Of a stretch of DNA of 27,269 nt, positions 5,800 to 16,192 are shown in pieces. A program made the position numbers and the translations under genes. The notes under the pieces were generated by a model. That model saw nothing but the letters and a program-made list of their open reading frames with translations. It was not told the origin of the DNA and did not search any database. Numbering within the stretch: position 1 is the stretch's first letter; the number at the start of each line of letters is the position of its first letter. The DNA lies in IMG/VR virus record IMGVR_UViG_3300021139_000117, positions 1 to 27,269 of that record, one strand, 5' to 3'. Source of the stretch: a virus.

Positions 5800-8091
5800 T
5801 TATGCTTGCTGCTGTAATATCTTTTCTGATGTGCCCACTTGTTTTTGTAAACTGCTGATTAATAAATCTAATTTTGCTATTTTCATGCTCATTAAATTAT
5901 CATTTTCATCAGGTTGCTCATTTTTAGCATATTGCACTGGTATTTTATTTCCATCAGGCAACGGAACCACTGGTTTAGTATTGGCCAATGTTGAATTATA
6001 TCCACTTGATGGTCCACTTAATTTTTTACCAATTTCTGGAGCATTACCTGCCACAGTGGTGCCCCCGTTTTTATTAAGATCTCCTAGCCATTTTTGAGCA
6101 TACGTATCGGCTGTCATTCCTTTATTAGCAGCCAACGCACTAGCAGACATTTTACCTTGAGCGTTTCCAGTATACCATGTTTTTGGTACAGCAGTTAGGT
6201 CTCCATTATTTTTTGCCAGTATTTCTTCTACATATTTTCGAGCTACCTGATCTTGAATTTCAGGTGGTGCTAAGTTAGCACTAAGAAATTCTTTTCCTAC
6301 ATTATATTTTTTTACAAGTGATTGCCAAGTACTATCAATAAATTGATATGCGCCAGATGCTGAAGATCCTTTAGCTTTGATTTGATAATTTCCACCAGAT
6401 TCTCTTTGCCGAATCGTTGCCAATATCTTTTCAAGTATACCAGGAGATGCTGCACTCGCTCCGGCAGCCGCACCGCCCCCACTCATTAAGTTATTAAAAA
6501 AGTTGCCTACGCTAGACCCCCCGCCTGGACTGCCGCCTGGACCTCCGCCCAAAGATCTCGTGGCTCCACCAGCACTACCTGCCGCTCCGGCGGTGCCTCC
6601 ACCAAATCCTAACGCTTGTCCTATTTTTGCTGGCAAGGAGGTACCACCGCCAACTTGACCTCCTTTACCAAGTACTGGATTTGACATACTGACTAATTGT
6701 TGAGCGGCATCAGATAAATTTGCAAATCCTGTGGCAACAGGAACAATGCCTTGATTAAGTAATAAATCCAATGTTTGAGTTGTATCTCTTTGATTTTCTC
6801 TAATTTTTACTTGATTTTTTACTCCTTCATCGCCTCCTGCTTTTGCGTCGTTTTGTTGTTTGGTTGCCTTTTCATAATTTTCTTGAGCATCTTGTTTATT
6901 GGTACTTGCCAATTTTACCATTCCCGGAATATCACCAAAAGTTTCCCCTGCTTTACCACCATATTTTCCCATGGTAGTTGAAATTTTATCCATTGTTTCT
7001 CTAGAGTCTTGACCTTGAGCTGCAAAAACATCTGCGATTTTCTTTGTGGGATCTTTTACTGTTTTTATAGTTGTACTAAAAGCTCTTTTATAAGCCTGAG
7101 CTTGATCACTAACACTACCAGAAAATGCCAATGCCAACCCATCTGCTATCTTTTGGTTTCCATTTGCAGACGCATTTACAAAAGCAGCCTGTTCTTTATC
7201 TAATTGTTCTTTGGCAGCTTGTCCGTCGGCACCGCCTTTGTTTATTCTTTGTTTTAATTCGTATACATGAGCCGAATATTCTTGTTGTGCTAACTCGTGT
7301 TCCATCAATTCATTTTGTTTTTTGGAATTCATGCCAGTTAATCTAGTTAATCTATCTTGTTCATCAATAAAAGCACTGGCACTTTCTTTCAATTCCTGTA
7401 AGGATTGCGTTCTCGATGATCCGCTTAGTTGCTGTCTTTTTATATAATTTACTATACCAGAATTTATATCCGTTTGGGTCAATCCCATGTTCATAAATTC
7501 AGTTTCTAATTCAGAATTTGTAATTGCGTTTGACACATCAGCAAAGTTTTTTGCTCCATCTGCTGCCGTGCCACCAAATCTTGCCAAAGTTTCAGCATTT
7601 TGTTTTAATAAATTTCCGTATTCGGAAATTTGTGCCACTGTGTATCCAGATTTTTGAAGATTTTTAAATGTGTCATCCATTCCAACTGCCAAACCTGAAC
7701 GACTTATATCTCTAAAAGCATCAAATAATCCATCTGCTTGCTGATTAATTAATGGTATTGCAAAAGCCGCTGCATCAGCGGCTGCTTTGGCTCCTTTACC
7801 AAATTTTCCAGTTGTTTCTAAATAATTTCCTAAATCAGTTAGTCCTTTAGCAGTTACCTCATTATACGCACTGAGTCCTTCCTTGCCTGCCATTAAGTCT
7901 GATCCCAATTTTACAGCAGAATCTTTTAATGTTTTATTGCCAGCACCTGTATCACCAGCGTATTGAGTAATACTGCGCTGAGCAGCTTTTATGCGTTGAG
8001 ACAAATCATCAGAAATTGGGCGATGAGCCGCTATTGCTTGATTATATTCATCTATTATTTGTTGGTATTCTTCGGAACTATAATTAGCCAT
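5800..8091 (-). CDS. Large virion protein with transglycosylase-like domain (tape-measure-like paralogue A)
   Basis: The 763-aa protein has three parts. Residues 1-480 are helical and clearly homologous to the next gene: ISRSGLAVGMDDTFKNLQ (129-146), an LTRLTGMNSKKQNELMEHEL block and QRDTTQTLDLLLNQGI. A Gly/Ala/Ser-rich linker follows. Residues about 550-675 resemble a lytic transglycosylase/lysozyme-like fold: TIRQRESGGNYQ with the likely catalytic Glu at about 563, then ASGAYQFIDSTWQSL. The last 75 residues (GPSSGYNSTL, VVPLPDGNKIPVQ, then a helix) recall the C-termini of phage tail tape-measure proteins. It probably acts in the virion, opening peptidoglycan during DNA entry. The context beside gp26/gp51-like chaperones suggests a tape-measure or hub role, which is inference. 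It starts 8 bp after its paralogue ends. Confidence 0.85.
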   Translation of the reverse strand: MANYSSEEYQQIIDEYNQAIAAHRPISDDLSQRIKAAQRSITQYAGDTGAGNKTLKDSAVKLGSDLMAGKEGLSAYNEVTAKGLTDLGNYLETTGKFGKGAKAAADAAAFAIPLINQQADGLFDAFRDISRSGLAVGMDDTFKNLQKSGYTVAQISEYGNLLKQNAETLARFGGTAADGAKNFADVSNAITNSELETEFMNMGLTQTDINSGIVNYIKRQQLSGSSRTQSLQELKESASAFIDEQDRLTRLTGMNSKKQNELMEHELAQQEYSAHVYELKQRINKGGADGQAAKEQLDKEQAAFVNASANGNQKIADGLALAFSGSVSDQAQAYKRAFSTTIKTVKDPTKKIADVFAAQGQDSRETMDKISTTMGKYGGKAGETFGDIPGMVKLASTNKQDAQENYEKATKQQNDAKAGGDEGVKNQVKIRENQRDTTQTLDLLLNQGIVPVATGFANLSDAAQQLVSMSNPVLGKGGQVGGGTSLPAKIGQALGFGGGTAGAAGSAGGATRSLGGGPGGSPGGGSSVGNFFNNLMSGGGAAAGASAASPGILEKILATIRQRESGGNYQIKAKGSSASGAYQFIDSTWQSLVKKYNVGKEFLSANLAPPEIQDQVARKYVEEILAKNNGDLTAVPKTWYTGNAQGKMSASALAANKGMTADTYAQKWLGDLNKNGGTTVAGNAPEIGKKLSGPSSGYNSTLANTKPVVPLPDGNKIPVQYAKNEQPDENDNLMSMKIAKLDLLISSLQKQVGTSEKILQQQA

Positions 8092-8099
8092 AATTTATA

Positions 8100-10193
8100 T
8101 TAATGTTGAAGTTGCAAAATTCTATCTGAAACAGCATTTTGTCTAGACATTATTTTTAATATTGAATCTAATCTCTCCAATTCCATTGTTAATAATTGTG
8201 TTGTATATTTTGATCCACTGCTACCAGTATTTGTATCTTGTACTGGAATAGACTTATCACTAGTTGTAGGAACTACTGCTTCGGTACCGTGTAGCATGGC
8301 TTGGAATCCAGTACTTGGTCCAGTTAATATGCCACCTGTAGCAGCCGAGGGCATTTGAATATGCGGAGGATCACCATTCAATGGACTAAATCCATGCTGA
8401 CTCAATAATCCTTTTGATTGCAACGCACTAACTTGGCTAGCATTAATATCAATTGCTTTACCTATATTATGTAAACTTTTACCAGGAGCAGCTTTGGGAT
8501 TTCCGCCTGAATTTACGGCAGCTTGTTCATCTGCTGATCTAAATGCGCTATTAACTTGCAATTTATCACCAGTAGCACCAAAATAATCTGACGCCATGGC
8601 CACAAAATTTTGTAGCACAGAAGAATTTAATTGCATAAAATGACTTTTGTCGCCTGTGCCGCCAGAAAATTTAATTACATCATCAATATTTTCGCCAGCC
8701 TTTGCTCCACTCGGTGGGCCGCTGCCTGCTGGAACTGTGCCACCAGCTGCTCCACCGGCAGCCGACGATTTAAATCCAAATTTTTCTAGCAATGTACTAC
8801 CGCCTCCAACTCTTCCTTCTTTACCAGCCAACTTTCCTAACACACCTGCTAGTTGTTCAGTCAACCCTGCTAGCCCAGACATTCCTGCTGTTAGTGGTTC
8901 AACCCCTTTATTAAGTGCCAAATCAAAAGTTTTAACCACATCACGTTGATCTTGTCGAATTTTAGCTTCGGCAGCCGTTGCCGCGTCGGTACCTTTTCCT
9001 TGATTTTGTAGTTGAACATTGATATCTTGTAATATTTGCTTTTGATCTTTTCCGGCCATTGAGGCTTCTTTTACATGTTCGCTGTAGGAACCACCCATCC
9101 TTTCATTGAAAACACCAGCTTGCGCAAGTTTCATACCTTTCGCAGATGTAGCTGTGGAATCTCGAACTGAAGCATTTATAGTAGCTGCTAAATCATTGTT
9201 ACCAGATTCAAGTTGAGCCGCCATCCCTGCACTGTTTCTTTTCGCTGCTTGATATGCTTTGCTAGTCACATCTCCGGCAAGCACCATTTGAACTTGTTTA
9301 GCTTTTTCAGGACCTATATTTCTTGCATAAACCATCATTTCTTTTTCATATTGCAGTCGTGCTTTAGCCGCTTCGCCCTCTGCGCCGCCAGCATCTATTT
9401 TTTTCTGTAGCTCATAAGCATGCGATGCATATTGTTCGGTAGCCATAGCAGCTTCGTAAACTTTGTTTTGCTCATCGGCACTCATGCCAGTAAGTTTAGT
9501 TAACTTATCTTGCTCCATAATAAATTCAGCAGCACTTTGAGCAATTTGATTATCATCTCGTTGTAATGTTGACCCAGCAAGTTGTTGTTGCTTTATATAA
9601 TTTGCCATACCACCGTTGATGTCATCAACAGTCATACCCATACGAAGAAACTGTCCTTCTAAACCTGACTCATGAATGTTTTTTGCTGCTTTGGCAAACT
9701 GCGCGGCACCGTCGGCCGTTGTTCCGCCCAATCTAGCCAGTACTGAAGAATTTTCCTGCATTAGCGAACCGTACTTGCCAATTTCCGCCATGGTATAACC
9801 AGCGTCTTGCAAGTTTTTAAAGGTGTCCTTCATGCCTACAGCAACACCAGAACGACTTATTTTTTGAAAATTATCAAATAAAGCGTCAGCTTGTTTAAGT
9901 GATGCTTGCGCATACTTGCCTGCTACGTCGGCCCCTTCGGCTAGACCCTTGGCTAATTTACCATGCCCTGCGGTAGCTGCTTTGCCAAGATCTGTGGATT
10001 TTTGTATGACATCGTTGTAAACAGATGCCCCTGAGGCACCTCTAAGTAACGCAGAACCAAGATCAATTCCACTGGTTTTCAGAGCTTGTCCGCTGGATTG
10101 TAGGGCTTTGTTATAGTCATCAAGCGACTCTGAAACATTATTCGCAGAATTCGTTAGGTTATTTAAATCTTCCGGGGTCATCTTATCTGCCAT
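8100..10193 (-). CDS. Large virion protein with M15 peptidase-like domain (tape-measure-like paralogue B)
   Basis: This 697-aa protein is a paralogue of the neighbouring 763-aa protein: KISRSGVAVGMKDTFKNLQD (111-130), KLTKLTGMSADEQNK, QRDVVKTFDLALNKGVEPL and a closing GPSTGFQAMLHGTEAVVP block match in order. In place of the transglycosylase-like domain it has, at about residues 520-612, an M15 (VanY/D-Ala-D-Ala carboxypeptidase-type) domain: LQVNSAFRSADEQAAVN, SLHNIGKAIDINA with zinc ligands His (about 573) and Asp (about 580), and a final PPHIQM His. Such enzymes cut peptide links in peptidoglycan. The C-terminal block is typical of tape-measure-like proteins. Divergent from the gp26-type gene, with 27 bp between the starts, which holds an exact late-promoter sequence. 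The tail role is inferred; the domain call is fairly sure. Confidence 0.85.
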   Translation of the reverse strand: MADKMTPEDLNNLTNSANNVSESLDDYNKALQSSGQALKTSGIDLGSALLRGASGASVYNDVIQKSTDLGKAATAGHGKLAKGLAEGADVAGKYAQASLKQADALFDNFQKISRSGVAVGMKDTFKNLQDAGYTMAEIGKYGSLMQENSSVLARLGGTTADGAAQFAKAAKNIHESGLEGQFLRMGMTVDDINGGMANYIKQQQLAGSTLQRDDNQIAQSAAEFIMEQDKLTKLTGMSADEQNKVYEAAMATEQYASHAYELQKKIDAGGAEGEAAKARLQYEKEMMVYARNIGPEKAKQVQMVLAGDVTSKAYQAAKRNSAGMAAQLESGNNDLAATINASVRDSTATSAKGMKLAQAGVFNERMGGSYSEHVKEASMAGKDQKQILQDINVQLQNQGKGTDAATAAEAKIRQDQRDVVKTFDLALNKGVEPLTAGMSGLAGLTEQLAGVLGKLAGKEGRVGGGSTLLEKFGFKSSAAGGAAGGTVPAGSGPPSGAKAGENIDDVIKFSGGTGDKSHFMQLNSSVLQNFVAMASDYFGATGDKLQVNSAFRSADEQAAVNSGGNPKAAPGKSLHNIGKAIDINASQVSALQSKGLLSQHGFSPLNGDPPHIQMPSAATGGILTGPSTGFQAMLHGTEAVVPTTSDKSIPVQDTNTGSSGSKYTTQLLTMELERLDSILKIMSRQNAVSDRILQLQH

Positions 10194-10220: not shown

Positions 10221-11075
10221 ATGAATGCAAACCCTTTAAGCCAATATTTTAGACAACCAGCAATTTATATCAAACTGCCCAGTCAAGGTAATTATTACCC
10301 GCCAGGCTCAATTGAAATGCCGCAAACGGGAGATATACCGGTACTACCAATGACAGCTATTGATGAAATTACATATCGTACACCAGATGCGCTGTTTAGC
10401 GGACAAGCGGTGATTAATGTAATTCAAAGTTGTGTTCCTGCTATCAAAGATGCTTGGGCTATTCCAGCTATGGATATTGATACTATACTAGTTGGTATTA
10501 GAATTGCCAGCTATGGTCACGAAATGAATTTTGGTACATCTTGCCCAAAATGCACTCACTCAGCTGAATATGGGTTGGATTTAAGAACAATATTAGATAA
10601 AATTAAAACACCAGACTATTCTCAACCAATCAAGCATGGTGATATTGAAATTTATTTTAAACCTATGACTTATAAGAATTTATCTGAAAATAACAAAATA
10701 CAGTATGAAGAGCAACGTATATTTCAAAATATAAGTTCCAATGCCACAACTAACGAAAACATAGACGATAATGTAAAACAAATTTCAGCTATGTCTAATG
10801 CGTTGAAGAAAATGACAGAAATGACCGTGTCAGCGTTATCGCAAAGCATCGCAATGATTCGAACACCATCTGCCATGGTATCAGAACACGAATATATTAC
10901 TGAATTTATAAAAAATTGCGATAGAGGATTGTTTAGTCGTATTCAAGACTACGTTATTGAAAGAAAATCACAAGCAGAAATGCAACCAGTTGACGTTAAA
11001 TGTACAGAATGTCAAAATGAATACAAACAATCTATTACATTGGACATGACAAGTTTTTTCGAGCCCGCCTCTTAA
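10221..11075 (+). CDS. 26: Baseplate hub/chaperone protein gp26-like, with split zinc ribbon
   Basis: The 284-aa product matches the T4 gp26 family (Pfam 'T4 bacteriophage base plate protein'). Typical blocks are YIKLPSQGNYYPPGSIEMPQ, VLPMTAIDEITYRTPDALFS and VINVIQSCVPAIKDAW. It is longer than T4 gp26 (208 aa). Four cysteines in two CxxC pairs (C108/C111 and C261/C264) should form a zinc ribbon whose halves are 150 residues apart in sequence. An AAGGA ribosome site precedes the ATG. Five codons after the second pair of Phe codons begin, the frame ends, but a T TTT TTC heptamer just before the stop can shift ribosomes into the following small ORF (see 11054). T4 gp26 is classed as a baseplate hub protein; a chaperone role for a tape-measure-like protein is inferred here. 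Confidence 0.88.
   Translation: MNANPLSQYFRQPAIYIKLPSQGNYYPPGSIEMPQTGDIPVLPMTAIDEITYRTPDALFSGQAVINVIQSCVPAIKDAWAIPAMDIDTILVGIRIASYGHEMNFGTSCPKCTHSAEYGLDLRTILDKIKTPDYSQPIKHGDIEIYFKPMTYKNLSENNKIQYEEQRIFQNISSNATTNENIDDNVKQISAMSNALKKMTEMTVSALSQSIAMIRTPSAMVSEHEYITEFIKNCDRGLFSRIQDYVIERKSQAEMQPVDVKCTECQNEYKQSITLDMTSFFEPAS
11054..11060 (+). other. Predicted -1 ribosomal frameshift site (T TTT TTC)
   Basis: In the gp26 frame the codons AGT TTT TTC place a perfect X XXY YYZ heptamer at 11054-11060, five codons before the stop. After a -1 slip the reading is CGA GCC CGC CTC TTA ACC ATG, open straight into the downstream 70-aa ORF, giving a fusion of 280 + 76 = 356 aa. The downstream ATG at 11078 has no Shine-Dalgarno sequence. 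A weak stem (GCCT 11067-11070 with AGGC 11089-11092) follows the site. The layout mirrors the G/GT tail-chaperone frameshift known from lambda and many other tailed phages. Confidence 0.6.
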
Positions 11076-11077
11076 CC

Positions 11078-11290
11078 ATGGACTCTGAAGGCATCGGCGA
11101 ATATGTTGATGGCTTAGATAATGAAATTAATGGTATTAGAATGGAGGCGTTAAAAATGGTTTGGTATATGCGAGGCGGACTTAGTTATGAAACTGCTTTG
11201 CAACTCAGTGTAGCAGAACGTAAACTCATCAGTGAAATTATATCTGAGAATATGGAGACCACAAAAAAATCAGGCCTCCCATTTTTTTAG
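11078..11290 (+). CDS. Small gp51-like protein, probably the frameshift extension of gp26
   Basis: The 70-aa ORF is helical and contains MRGGLSYETALQLSVAERKL, a pattern found in the small tail-chaperone extension proteins of tailed phages (a 'SYxxALxLSxxER' helix pair). In T4 the gene after 26 is 51, the baseplate hub assembly factor, so a gp51 role is suggested by order and size. It starts 2 bp after the gp26 stop with no visible ribosome site, in the -1 frame. It is therefore likely made mainly as part of the 356-aa fusion, or by coupled re-initiation at 11078. Sequence similarity to T4 gp51 itself could not be tested here. Confidence 0.75.
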   Translation: MDSEGIGEYVDGLDNEINGIRMEALKMVWYMRGGLSYETALQLSVAERKLISEIISENMETTKKSGLPFF

Positions 11291-11397: not shown

Positions 11398-11416
11398 AGA
11401 TTAGCTACGCTAATCT
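11398..11416 (-). terminator. Terminator hairpin for leftward transcription
   Basis: Minus-strand AGATTAGC, loop GTA, GCTAATCT forms an 8-bp stem followed by TTTT (then AAG). It would end transcripts coming from gp55 through the GIY-YIG gene and the structured region. The T-run is short, so efficiency may be modest. Confidence 0.55.
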
Positions 11417-11453
11417 AAGATCTCGTTTACACTCGATCTTATTTTTTGTTTTT
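11416..11453 (+). terminator. Rho-independent terminator after gp26/gp51-like genes
   Basis: TAAGATC (11416-11422) pairs with GATCTTA (11435-11441) across a 12-base loop and is followed by TTTTTTGTTTTT. It lies 125 bp after the last plus-strand gene, and abuts the opposite-facing terminator. Confidence 0.65.
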
Positions 11454-11454
11454 G

Positions 11455-11784
11455 CTTTAGAAATTCCTCATCCAGATTAAGCAGTCACAATTCACCGTAT
11501 AAACGATGAATTGACCATTTCTCATCCGAGTTGCACAGTCTTTATTATAAAGAGATTCGTATATACATACGACGGAGGCGGTTGACCGGTACCCCCTACT
11601 CTAGCTTCACATATCAACGGAACCCTAGTAACCCTATAATAAATCCAAGTCCTATAAGCATGGGGTGTATCTTTTTCACAGAGCCCAAACCATTTGATGC
11701 CTTAAGTTAGCAGTTGCCTTTGACGCCCAAAGTTTTCCAGACCGGGTATTTCACCGTTCCTCGATGGGGATCGAGCTACCTCGA
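11455..11784 (-). ncRNA. Candidate structured non-coding RNA between convergent genes
   Basis: These 330 bases have no credible ORF and are more GC-rich (especially 11570-11784) than the neighbouring spacer. Inverted repeats are dense: CAATTCACCG/CGATGAATTG (11488-11513, one G-T pair), TCTTTA/TAAAGA (11539-11553), TCGTAT/ATACGA (11557-11572), CTTTG/CAAAG (11718-11732), CTCGAT/ATCGAG (11760-11775) and GATCGAG/CTCGATC (11769-11786). The strand is uncertain. Minus is preferred because the leftward operon reads into it and a minus-strand terminator follows at 11398. I compared it by eye with tRNA, tmRNA, RNase P, group I intron, guanidine-I and glutamine riboswitch signatures and none fits. It may be a processed 3' UTR RNA or an independent RNA. 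The family is unknown. Confidence 0.4.
11463..11540. repeat. Two imperfect 24-bp direct repeats, 54 bp apart
   Basis: The copies at 11463-11486 and 11517-11540 match at 17 of 24 positions, sharing ATT-CTCATCC-TT-CAGTC blocks. The first copy is followed directly by the CAATTCACCG hairpin, and the second abuts the TCTTTA hairpin. They may be repeated structural units of the candidate RNA, or protein-binding sites. Confidence 0.4.
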
Positions 11785-11786
11785 TC
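11760..11786. repeat. Two mutually exclusive hairpins over the GIY-YIG stop codon
   Basis: CTCGAT-GGGG-ATCGAG (11760-11775) and GATCGAG-CTAC-CTCGATC (11769-11786) share the central ATCGAG, so only one can form at a time. The outer arm of the second overlaps the TGA stop (11785-11787) of the minus-strand gene. The layout resembles an alternative-fold switch. Confidence 0.45.
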
Positions 11787-12222
11787 AAACTGTGTCGTTT
11801 AATTTTTTAATATGACTGCCATGTACACGGACTTGTATATGTCCATTGTAGTAGTCGTCAGATTCTAATACACGTCTTTGAAATTGTTCGCGAGCTTCAA
11901 CGTAACTACATTCAGCCTTGGACCTACAATAGTATAGTATTTCGCGAGTAAAGTTGCCTGCGCCTAAGCGTTCGATGTCTTGATTTAATTCTATGTTGCT
12001 GCCGTAATATTGCTGCCAATCTGATTCAATTTTACTACGAATTCTCTTTTTCTTTTTGGTGCCGTTTTTTTGTTTTACTATTCGATATGTTGTTTTACTA
12101 AATTTTGCTAATTTTTTGCCAATATATTTCCTACCGGTTAAGCTATTCGTTATACAATACACGAAACCGATACACTCTTCTGGTAATGATTCAATTTGGT
12201 TGTTTTCAAAAATCCATGACAT
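11785..12222 (-). CDS. GIY-YIG nuclease-like protein
   Basis: The 145-aa protein carries the two hallmark segments of GIY-YIG nucleases: GFVYCITN (residues 19-26, GFVY for GIY) and RKYIGKK (31-37). A basic stretch (about 50-65) and a YYGSN motif follow, then a conserved-type Glu in EAREQF (109-113). It has no extra DNA-binding module of the sort carried by homing endonucleases such as I-TevI, so it is probably a stand-alone phage nuclease. Similar short proteins are common in marine T4-like phages as far as I recall; their target is not known to me. It lies 43 bp after gp46 at the end of the leftward recombination operon. The ATG has no evident ribosome site. The structured region begins at its stop codon. 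Confidence 0.82.
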   Translation of the reverse strand: MSWIFENNQIESLPEECIGFVYCITNSLTGRKYIGKKLAKFSKTTYRIVKQKNGTKKKKRIRSKIESDWQQYYGSNIELNQDIERLGAGNFTREILYYCRSKAECSYVEAREQFQRRVLESDDYYNGHIQVRVHGSHIKKLNDTV

Positions 12223-12265: not shown

Positions 12266-14029
12266 TCATGCTATTTCAATATCCGTATTGTAACTGGTAA
12301 ATCCATTATCTTTAACTACTTTCAAAATGTTTTCTACACGACCAGCAAGTTCATCTCTGTGGCTTACCAACCAAATACTCTTATGTCGTTCACGTGACAT
12401 TTGTTTTAACAAAGCCAATGCTGACTCTACTCCTTGTGTGTCTAGCCCATTGTCAATCATTTCATCAATGAATAACACATTAATTGGAGTGTATAGTGAT
12501 TCAAACACATCGCGGAATGCCCATGCCATGCTTAAAATTAATCTATTGCGCTCACCTCGACTTAAATTATCAAAATCAAGTTCACGTCCTAGTTCTTCAA
12601 TACTAACAGTTAAATCATTTTGGAATACTACAGTATGCGGCAACCCAATACGATCCAAATAATGTGTTAATCTAACATTTAAATAGGATAAATTTTGTTC
12701 AATAATTTTTTTGCGAATAAATGAATCTTTATTTGTAAGCAATTTTAATAAAAACTCTTGATGATCTTGAAGTTTTGTTAACTCATTTAATGTGTCATAG
12801 GTAACTTCTTGGACTGCTTGTGTTTGCATTTCACTAATTTGTTCAGCATATGGATCTACTTCGGCTATTTTTTCTTCTAACTGCTTTTGTAAATTAGCTA
12901 AATTAGCACGATGCTGAATAGCTTGTTCTTCTTTGTCATAAAACATTTTGGGAGGTTTACCTAACACGCCCAAGGCGTCGTGGGCAGTCTGTAAACTTGC
13001 CAGTCCAATAGCATATTCTTGGCAACTCGCTCTAGACGTTGCCAGTTCACTCTTCTTGATCTCCATGACCTGTTCGTGCTTCTCGTCGTGAAAGGCTTGA
13101 CCGCACGTATGGCAGGTATGTGATTCGAGAGTTTCAATTTCCTTTTCCAATTTAGCCACCGACTTAGCCTCACGGGCTTGATCCAGTTTTCCCCTGCTGA
13201 TCGCAGACGCAAAATCGTTGATATCTTTACGTTTCTGATCCCACAAGCTGTGCGCTTTGTGAGCCTCGATTTCCGCATTAATGTCGATCTCTTGTAGTGT
13301 CTCCAGCGCGGTCGTAATTTTAGTTTTCTCTTCTTCATTTTTAATGACCCACATTCCTTGTCTACGTTTTAATGCTTCAATTTGTTCTTCAATACGTTTG
13401 TTAGCATCTTGTACAGCGCGAATACGAAATTCCTCTTTTTGTATATCATCTTTGGTAGTGCGATTTAGCTCTTTTATTCGCTCAGCACGTTCGGATAACA
13501 TAGTAATGCCCAACAGTTGCTCAATAATAGTACGTTGACTGTTAGCATTTAGTGATAAAAAAGGTTCTGTATAAGTGTTTAACGCCATAATATGCTTAAA
13601 CATATCATGGCTCATACCTAATAAATGCTCAATTTCATCTTGTGTTTCACGACTGTCACCTTGAGCATTATCATCTGCTTCAGTTTCTTTATCGTTTACA
13701 TAAAACTTTAGCAAATTAGGTTTACGTCCGCGTTCAATTTTATAATCTTGACCGCCTATACTAAAATCTAATGATACCAACATATTTTTACCATTAGTTT
13801 TGTTTATAAGGTTGTCACGTTTAATATTGCTGAGAGCAACGCCATACATAGCATAACTTAATGCGTTGATAATTGTAGTTTTTCCTGTACCATTTCTACT
13901 ACCATCCCCACCGAGATCTAAATTTTCACCCAGCACTAAAGTTAAATCTTTTCTGTCAAAATCAATGCCTTGGGTGGCATTGCCCACACTCATAAAGTTC
14001 TTTACAGTTAAATTTTTTATTTGAATCAT
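12266..14029 (-). CDS. 46: Recombination nuclease ATPase subunit gp46 (Rad50/SbcC type)
   Basis: This is the ATPase partner of gp47. The pair resects DNA ends for recombination-dependent replication and degrades host DNA. The 587-aa protein has the Rad50 plan: a Walker A loop (residues 34-51, ending NGTGKT), coiled-coil arm, a zinc hook CHTC (C306, C309) in the middle, a second coiled-coil arm, an ABC signature LSRGER (489-494), Walker B VLFIDE (518-523) and a switch His in VSHRDE (about 557). Its length matches T4 gp46 (560 aa). Its ATG overlaps the gp47 stop by 4 bases, so the two are translationally coupled. The stretch 12955-13320 around the hook is much more GC-rich than the rest of the gene. 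Confidence 0.96.
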   Translation of the reverse strand: MIQIKNLTVKNFMSVGNATQGIDFDRKDLTLVLGENLDLGGDGSRNGTGKTTIINALSYAMYGVALSNIKRDNLINKTNGKNMLVSLDFSIGGQDYKIERGRKPNLLKFYVNDKETEADDNAQGDSRETQDEIEHLLGMSHDMFKHIMALNTYTEPFLSLNANSQRTIIEQLLGITMLSERAERIKELNRTTKDDIQKEEFRIRAVQDANKRIEEQIEALKRRQGMWVIKNEEEKTKITTALETLQEIDINAEIEAHKAHSLWDQKRKDINDFASAISRGKLDQAREAKSVAKLEKEIETLESHTCHTCGQAFHDEKHEQVMEIKKSELATSRASCQEYAIGLASLQTAHDALGVLGKPPKMFYDKEEQAIQHRANLANLQKQLEEKIAEVDPYAEQISEMQTQAVQEVTYDTLNELTKLQDHQEFLLKLLTNKDSFIRKKIIEQNLSYLNVRLTHYLDRIGLPHTVVFQNDLTVSIEELGRELDFDNLSRGERNRLILSMAWAFRDVFESLYTPINVLFIDEMIDNGLDTQGVESALALLKQMSRERHKSIWLVSHRDELAGRVENILKVVKDNGFTSYNTDIEIA

Positions 14030-15042
14030 AGATTTTGATATATTTTTAACAACAATTTAGGATCATAAAATTCTGATTCTATATTTGTAATTTGATCAGT
14101 AACAATTTGATCAACACTTTCAAATTTTACTTCCCCCGGAGCAAGATCTAAGTTTATATCAGTACGTTTAGATGGGATCAGCGCCATTTCTCGTAAATTA
14201 TAATCTTTAATAAATGTTTCTTTAATAAAATTAGCTTCTTCGTAACTAATATCAATATCTAACTCTACACGAACATGCATGTTGGGTACAAATATATTGG
14301 CGCCATTATCTATTGCTTCACTTAATTTCATAACACGATATAAAGGTTGTCCAGGCCAAGCATGATATACAGGATCTTTGCCCCAATCTAAAACCATCAT
14401 GCCACGATCACTATCGCCAGCATCGGCAAAGTTGTGCGGAAAACAATTTCCAATATATGTAACATTTTTTCGAGTTTGGCGTAAGTGGAAATGACCACTA
14501 AACACGCTTTCTACTCCTTGAAAATTATCAACTTGTATTTCACCGTGGTCTGGCATTTCTACCATAGCATTCATTTTAAAATGTGGCAATTCAAAATGAC
14601 CAAACATATACTTAGAATTCATTTTACTTAATTTTTTATGGTCATCACCTACTAGCCACGGAGCAATTATAACATCATCTTGTTTAAACCAATCATTGAC
14701 AATTATAATATTGGGAATATGTTTTGCCCATTCTGCTCCATGTATATCTCGTTTATCACGATAATATAAATCGTGGTTGCCAGGAATAAAATAAAAAGTA
14801 TCAAATGCTTTTGATAATTTTTCTATTGCTTGAACGCTAAATTGTAGTGTTTGTAAATTGATTGAAGCACGGTGATTATGCCAATCACCGAGAAACATTC
14901 CAGTTTCGCAACCTTCTTCTTTGGCTTTGGCAATAAACCAATCAATAAATGTTTCACAATCTCGATTATGTACTAGACTATTGGATTTCAAACCCCAGTG
15001 TAGATCCGTACATACTGCTACCTTTTTAAATAAATTACTCAT
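14026..15042 (-). CDS. 47: Recombination nuclease subunit gp47 (Mre11/SbcD type)
   Basis: This is the metal-dependent nuclease of the gp46-gp47 complex. All phosphoesterase motifs are present in order in 338 aa: DLHWG (13-17), GDWHNH (52-57), GNHD (88-91), GHFE (148-151) and SGHFH (182-186), which supply the two-metal site. The length equals T4 gp47 (339 aa). The ATG at 15042 lies inside the end of the preceding 75-aa gene (8-base overlap), and the 3' end overlaps gp46 by 4 bases, so the run from gp55 onward is one operon. The identity is secure. Confidence 0.97.
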   Translation of the reverse strand: MSNLFKKVAVCTDLHWGLKSNSLVHNRDCETFIDWFIAKAKEEGCETGMFLGDWHNHRASINLQTLQFSVQAIEKLSKAFDTFYFIPGNHDLYYRDKRDIHGAEWAKHIPNIIIVNDWFKQDDVIIAPWLVGDDHKKLSKMNSKYMFGHFELPHFKMNAMVEMPDHGEIQVDNFQGVESVFSGHFHLRQTRKNVTYIGNCFPHNFADAGDSDRGMMVLDWGKDPVYHAWPGQPLYRVMKLSEAIDNGANIFVPNMHVRVELDIDISYEEANFIKETFIKDYNLREMALIPSKRTDINLDLAPGEVKFESVDQIVTDQITNIESEFYDPKLLLKIYQNL

Positions 15043-15271: not shown

Positions 15272-16192
15272 TTAATCTTCGTTATTATATTCGGCAATGT
15301 CAATATTGGTAACAATACTACCAGCGTTGTGATTTTTTTTGCCAGCGTTTTGTCTTGTCCAAGAAGGATTCAACCCGTTCATTTCTAACATGTCATCACG
15401 AATGTTTTGATTTTTCTTTTCAGAATTAAGAACATGTGTAAATGAATTGGTAATTGCCGCAGTATAATAAGCAAATGGATTTTGTGATTTTGATTCGTCA
15501 AATCGTAAACCAATTTGTGATAATTGTACCAGGGCCGCTCCACGCATTTCTTCGTTGTAAGTATAGCCACGCCAGTTACTACGAGTAGCATATCGATCAC
15601 ATAATTTCATAAACATATTGGCTAGTATACGAGTCATAGAGCCATGATCTTTGTTAAACTCGCCTCGATCCAAATCACCGATCCAGTGACTTTTACCCAC
15701 AATAAATGGTTGTTTTTTATCATCTATTCTATAATGATAAAATGGGGGAAATGGAAGTCTTACATGCTTGGTATCATCCAATGCTGGTTCTATTGGCAAA
15801 TCAAGCAACGGGTCTACTTCTATATCAAATTCAAAAATATCTTCAATTTTTTTCTTTTTAGTAGTAGCAGATTTGGGGATTTTTTTTGGAGCCATAGGTA
15901 TGTGTTCCCAACAAGTAACACGAAATACTAAATCAGTATTGGGTATTTTTTTAGGATCAATGACAACTCCTGTTTCTTTTTTAATACGGTCTGCTCGATT
16001 TCTACGAGCTTCTGCTACGGTACGTTGATTAATTTTTTCTACTGTGGGTAAAATAATATCATATTGATGGTCGTTTACGGGGTCTTTAAATGTACAATAT
16101 GTATTTTTGGATAAGTGTATTTGCTTTAGAATATCTCTGTTATTGAGATAAATTACTTTTTTTGGTGTGGGGGTTATTGGGGCAGTAGCCAC
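15272..16192 (-). CDS. 55: Late-transcription sigma factor gp55, N-terminally extended
   Basis: gp55 binds host RNA polymerase and recognises TATAAATA late promoters, normally with gp33 and the gp45 clamp (neither in this window). The core is at about residues 175-275: GSMTRILANMFMKLCDRYAT, GYTYNEEMRGAALVQL, FDESKSQNPFAYYTAAI and SEKKNQNIRDDMLEMNG, matching the gp55 form of marine T4-like phages. T4 gp55 has 185 aa. Here 306 aa include about 165 residues in front of the core, with a Lys-rich stretch (103-116), and no domain I can name. The start is GTG (16192-16190), chosen because GGAG lies 9 bases ahead and a sigma70-type promoter lies just upstream. It heads the leftward operon through gp47 and gp46. 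Confidence 0.88.
   Translation of the reverse strand: MATAPITPTPKKVIYLNNRDILKQIHLSKNTYCTFKDPVNDHQYDIILPTVEKINQRTVAEARRNRADRIKKETGVVIDPKKIPNTDLVFRVTCWEHIPMAPKKIPKSATTKKKKIEDIFEFDIEVDPLLDLPIEPALDDTKHVRLPFPPFYHYRIDDKKQPFIVGKSHWIGDLDRGEFNKDHGSMTRILANMFMKLCDRYATRSNWRGYTYNEEMRGAALVQLSQIGLRFDESKSQNPFAYYTAAITNSFTHVLNSEKKNQNIRDDMLEMNGLNPSWTRQNAGKKNHNAGSIVTNIDIAEYNNED

Follow-up and report, generated by a model that had tools for sequence, protein, structure and literature searches.

A conserved structured RNA carrying two identical 7-nt words behind the gp55-SbcDC-SegE operon of a freshwater T4-like phage

Gene neighborhood of the convergent gap

We analyzed a virus record of 27,269 bases (hereafter the window) that belongs to a freshwater phage with a T4-like set of genes. 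Genes for a gp55-like late sigma factor, SbcD, SbcC, and SegE follow one another on the minus strand in an operon that ends in a structured RNA, and the operon converges with a T4-type baseplate protein gene and a 70-aa ORF on the plus strand (Table 1). The original prediction, made from the bare sequence, had placed an unidentified structured RNA in the 494 bp between the convergent genes. The gap is borne out by the ORF ends at 11290 and 11785, and the 330-bp stretch within it is GC-richer as described, with 44% G+C versus 25% in the rest of the gap and 38% in the window. The absence of a credible ORF from 11455 to 11784 also holds, since a 59-aa plus-strand frame in this stretch is open in only 3 of 119 homologues, and in 96 of them its length is not divisible by 3. 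The predicted edge at 11784 fell ~10 nt short: the RNA starts at ~11794, just before the SegE stop codon, and ends at ~11456, ahead of two terminator hairpins that both vary with compensation among homologues.

Several features of the neighborhood were observed alongside. The 70-aa ORF, which has no family hit, adjoins the baseplate gene even in distant loci (L013 and L074, ~58% identity). The best PHROG of the SegE-type gene is phrog_447, labeled NAD synthetase, a label that looks wrong given the strong Pfam SegE match. Two large minus-strand ORFs (8100-10193 and 5800-8091) are adjacent and have N-terminal halves that are alike by eye; the first has, near its C-terminus, a match to an endolysin family, along with a weak VanY-type peptidase match below the Pfam cut-off.

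Table 1 Genes, helices, pseudoknots, and words in and around the convergent gap of the window
Feature	Position	Strand	Family, pairing or basis
T4-type baseplate protein gene, convergent with gp55-SegE operon	10221-11075	+	PF12322, phrog_150
70-aa ORF, convergent with gp55-SegE operon	11078-11290	+	No family hit
Two terminator hairpins	11398-11440	Both directions possible	11439-11435/11422-11418 and 11416-11410/11404-11398; compensatory variation
Structured RNA, type A, ~330 nt	11456-11794	-	Homologues, conservation profile, covariation, conserved leader
Word 2, GGAUGAG	11467-11473	-	Identical to word 1
H10 hairpin, between the two words	11491-11510	-	Alignment of homologues
Word 1, GGAUGAG	11521-11527	-	Identical to word 2
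Pseudoknot PK1	11541-11643	-	11643-11640 with 11544-11541; covaries within type A
H7 enclosing H8 and H9	11551-11602	-	H7 11602-11599/11554-11551; H8 11596-11592/11578-11574; H9 11570-11568/11561-11559
Most conserved core and pseudoknot PK2	11580-11625	-	11618-11614 (GUUGA) with 11585-11581 (UCAAC)
H6 hairpin	11630-11651	-	11651-11645/11636-11630; loop forms PK1
H5	11661-11687	-	11687-11684/11664-11661 and 11680-11679/11667-11666
H4 hairpin	11698-11712	-	Conserved loop AACUUAA
H2 enclosing H3	11726-11768	-	H2 11768-11765/11729-11726; H3 11760-11754/11745-11739
H1 hairpin	11769-11786	-	11786-11780 with 11775-11769; all 7 pairs compensated
SegE-type GIY-YIG endonuclease gene, just upstream of the RNA	11785-12222	-	PF19835, E 2e-32
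gp46/SbcC-like gene, same operon	12266-14029	-	phrog_77
gp47/SbcD-like gene	14026-15042	-	phrog_100
gp55-like late sigma factor gene	15272-16192	-	phrog_12791, phrog_234

Covariation, strand, and distribution of the RNA

Several hundred homologous loci were gathered by protein searches with SegE, the baseplate protein, SbcD, and SbcC together with a core pattern; they sample near relatives among the matches listed, and the counts given here depend on the alignments. A profile of the element matches in at least 306 of these loci, and sequences of the same kind as the window RNA (type A; types B and C, found at the same site, are described below) are 66-100% identical to it, with a median of 76%. 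To judge covariation in 119 sequences, we used a null in which the substitutions of each column were redistributed over the tree. The highest of 1.9 million null scores was 124.5, a value exceeded by 17 observed pairs, 14 of them Watson-Crick and lying in H1, H3, H5, H7, H8, H9, and the terminators. Pairs thus covary among homologues, the opposite of the outcome (no covariation) that the original prediction had named as speaking against an RNA. In a MAFFT alignment of 35 of the 119 sequences, a 69-pair structure had 93% of its cells paired, and 36 of the 69 pairs change on both sides, compared with 20.8 after shuffling and 8-14 when the structure was slid along the alignment, the latter a control that is generous to the structure because the structure was derived from the same sequences. 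Across the helices finally adopted, pairing holds in 7368 of 7431 cells (>99%). The predicted number of stem-loops, at least six, was right, but the helices that are supported rest on covariation and not on the folding of a single sequence, which is no better than that of shuffles on either strand (z of -0.83 and -0.82).

The fold includes two pseudoknots. PK1 is kept in type B with other letters (CUGAUAU/AUAUCAG and UUAGCGU/ACGCUAA), while the support for PK2 comes from type B, where it reads GUUGU/ACAAC, because it is invariant in type A. The length of H9 varies among homologues, and four loci (L022, L075, L139, and L269) have the H9 region enlarged by an insertion of ~40-75 nt with the rest intact. 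From these analyses, a conserved RNA fold is almost certainly present in the window.

The strand of the RNA is the minus strand, given that G-U cells number 262 and A-C cells 19 where the usual pair is Watson-Crick. It matches the SbcC strand in all 260 comparable loci among the matches listed. Likewise among the matches listed, the element is present in 184 of the 190 related loci in which SbcC is followed by at least 3.5 kb of DNA; of the other six, one is phage PA5oct, two carry a different element at the site, and three may be cut off before it by the end of the contig or of the fetched DNA. The RNA begins close behind the stop of the preceding gene, whichever gene that is, with a short and conserved GACUCUGU-like leader upstream of H1. 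Its distance to SbcC ranges from 0.5 to 7 kb because genes are inserted between the two, and wherever a locus contains both the RNA and the baseplate gene, they converge.

Seven records of 157-347 kb each hold the element at one place per genome, and the two pieces found in one of them are a single copy with an insertion. Three records holding relatives exceed 300 kb (317, 321, and 347 kb), which identifies these relatives as jumbo phages, and among isolates, Pseudomonas jumbo phages come nearest by SbcD (47%). PA5oct has no homologue beside SbcC; a 23.5-bit match elsewhere in its genome runs into the end of an annotated gene and was taken as chance. The RNA was not found in 50,697 phage records or in plasmid records, and exact core patterns gave no match in 84,980 bacterial and archaeal genomes (GTDB); five scattered hits obtained there with a looser pattern for H8 appear to be due to chance.

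Relation to Polynucleobacter-1 and other known RNAs

The window has no match in Rfam at gathering score or at E up to 10, and neither the ten type A loci tested nor the type C loci gave anything above chance; together with the covariation among homologues, this strongly supports the predicted unidentified structured RNA. Our literature search found no paper on this RNA beyond the table that lists RF01718. A 317-kb relative that carries the type A RNA also contains the Rfam freshwater-2 RNA (RF02980, 69 bits; L378:2285-2373).

Polynucleobacter-1 (RF01718) occupies the same genomic place, after SegE, in related phages (94-111 bits in eight loci: L014, L015, L046, L050, L051, L053, L066, and L077). 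We refer to such RNAs as type B, a typing that rests on a partial profile match, with eight members confirmed with Rfam. The RF01718 model covers approximately the first third of the conserved RNA, which extends ~250 nt past it. A model built from the type A 3' half only (R1) finds the stretch behind Polynucleobacter-1 at E values of 1e-8 to 1e-16, which gives types A and B a common 3' half, comprising H7, H8, PK1, PK2, the two words, and the place of H10 between the words. RF01718 thus represents the 5' portion of a longer RNA to which the window RNA is homologous in its 3' half, and the window holds a new subtype of that RNA. No likeness was seen between the type A and type B 5' halves, and the 5' half of the window RNA is unmatched by RF01718 at any level tested. 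As a member of RF01718 itself, the window was rejected, as it stays below the gathering score (37 bits) with no match to E 10, and none of ten type A loci matched. In the table of Weinberg et al. 2010 (PMC2864571), RF01718 is entered as a possible cis-regulatory RNA from Burkholderiales and fresh water, whereas in related phages it sits at the end of an operon.

A third kind of RNA at the site (type C; L013, L074, L061, and L068) shares the word-hairpin-word module by eye, and model R1 matches it marginally (L068, E 0.04). In these loci the conserved element is ~430 nt long (L013:6436-6900), has the word ACAUGAA and no Rfam match, and is possibly a second unlisted RNA. On the SegE tree, which rests on few columns, the RNA types need 13 changes, at least three of them forced by well-supported branches, which suggests that types may have been exchanged between phages.

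Other known RNAs were compared and set aside. GOLLD, ROOL, and the other large RNAs in Rfam gave no model match, and the window RNA is about half the size of GOLLD and ROOL or less; a scan of one large relative gave no tRNA genes. The guanidine-I riboswitch presumably shares CUAGGGUUCCG with the window RNA, an 11-nt likeness seen by eye only, with no model match at E 10. Riboswitch classes do not fit, since the downstream baseplate gene is convergent in every locus holding it and so is not on the same strand. A template RNA of a reverse transcriptase (retron or DRT) was likewise rejected, as PF00078 is absent from nine records including those of 317, 321, and 347 kb. GOLLD and ROOL are large, ornate, pseudoknotted RNAs linked to phages (PMC12286853, and general background); the window RNA resembles them in being ornate, pseudoknotted, and phage-linked, but is marked by its identical words and by the lack of an Rfam match.

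The twin words and possible roles of the RNA

The imperfect repeat of 54-bp period noted in the original prediction is real and conserved, and consists of two 7-nt words flanking H10, spaced 47-61 nt apart in homologues. Neither the matching of these words nor the link to Polynucleobacter-1 was part of the original prediction. The letters of the words covary by identity and not by complementarity. In fixed alignment columns, 117 of 119 type A sequences have the same letter in both copies at all seven word positions. Ahead of the word come three bases that are constant within each copy and differ between the two, and the base behind it matches no more often than expected by chance. Inferred substitutions fall on the same branches in both copies in 17 of 17 cases at 11527/11473 and 8 of 8 at 11523/11469, and both column pairs exceed every score of the tree-aware null. 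Types A, B, and C together use at least 11 different words, with identical copies in 155 of 158 sequences by a parser that takes the best-matching pair and so leans towards identity; the parser never gave 7/7 in shuffled sequences, and the fixed-column count gives the same result. RNAIII of Staphylococcus and CsrB also expose several copies of one short motif on a folded RNA. Their motifs are fixed, whereas here the word changes from phage to phage in both copies together.

Searches for a partner of the words found none. Within the RNA, where cis pairing was sought, no third site follows the words. In two large genomes, a search for a second copy of the unit gave only scattered matches to its short core, and between these two genomes, in the stretches that align, the only conserved complementary site was the RNA itself.

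We consider there to be an even chance that the locus encodes a trans-acting or scaffold RNA, derived from the 3' end of the operon, with two identical sites for one partner. The minus strand from 11794 to 11456 would encode a non-coding RNA of ~330 nt, made as the last part of the gp55-SbcD-SbcC-SegE transcript, which would stop at the terminators at 11440-11398; the position of the RNA at the operon end, before these terminators, fits such an origin, and the RNA may be either the phage regulatory RNA or the stable processed 3' UTR raised in the original prediction. No promoter was seen by eye just upstream, so a free RNA would need processing, and it may be freed from the operon transcript at its 3' end. 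Its pseudoknotted core would then present the two words, one on each side of a hairpin, to one partner (a dimeric protein or an RNA) bound twice through them, and during infection the RNA would serve in trans or as a scaffold. Sequence comparison establishes the conserved fold with its strand, helices, and PK1, the fixed place, the homology with the RNA that carries Polynucleobacter-1, and the identity of the words; transcription, processing, a shared partner, and action in trans are inferred.

A different use of the same transcript is conceivable, in which the fold is a cis-acting 3' UTR element that protects or regulates the gp55-SbcDC-SegE mRNA, with a word-binding phage protein giving feedback. 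The RNA always closes the operon, a short way after its last stop codon and ahead of a terminator, which fits such an element. We nevertheless regard this as less likely, because a pseudoknotted 330-nt fold with a near-invariant core of 50 nt exceeds what protection from decay needs, and because the insertion of other genes upstream, which puts it 0.5 to 7 kb from SbcC, leaves the element unchanged. The words themselves could be matched by copying, through template switching or recombination between short direct repeats that flank H10. The identity of the words is stricter than a G-U tolerant pairing partner needs, which leaves room for such a cause; the copies match regardless of which letters are used, even in rare words (ACAUGAA, GCAUAAU, and AGAUCAA), both change on the same branch, and T4-type phages recombine actively. 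However, the identity stops sharply at 7 nt, between preceding bases that are fixed and different and a following base at chance level, and no reverse transcriptase was found in nine records, three of them >300 kb. The Watson-Crick partners of H1 also change in step as strictly (19 of 20-21), so selection alone can yield the identity of the words, and copying appears unlikely to us.

Two further explanations were weighed. An operon boundary with direct repeats and hairpins is what a DNA element might look like, be it an origin, a recombination site, or a terminator site that folds by coincidence, but the wobble pairs belong to one strand (262:19), the long-range pseudoknot covaries, and the spacing of the words is free from 47 to 61, which makes this very improbable. 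The relic of an intron or mobile element raised in the original prediction is less probable still and largely refuted. It would account for the adjoining GIY-YIG (SegE) gene and for at least three kinds of 5' domain at one site; against it, searches up to E 10 gave no Rfam match to a group I or group II intron, the flanking genes are intact with no split gene or exons, the element is a single copy at a fixed site, and the nine records searched hold no reverse transcriptase.

Beyond a trans-acting or scaffold RNA at this locus, we tentatively propose a new class of phage RNA, in which a common 3' module with two copies of a changeable 7-nt word would be combined with exchangeable structured 5' domains, of which one site has at least three kinds. 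Selection may keep the copies identical as one partner reads both, and the RNA may thereby serve as a scaffold with a phage-specific address.

The retention of the RNA by ~97% of the related phage loci examined suggests that it is probably important to infection, and it is new to Rfam despite being kept in nearly all relatives. These results also give the orphan motif Polynucleobacter-1 a phage context, and they raise the puzzle of why two words must be identical while the word itself is free to change.
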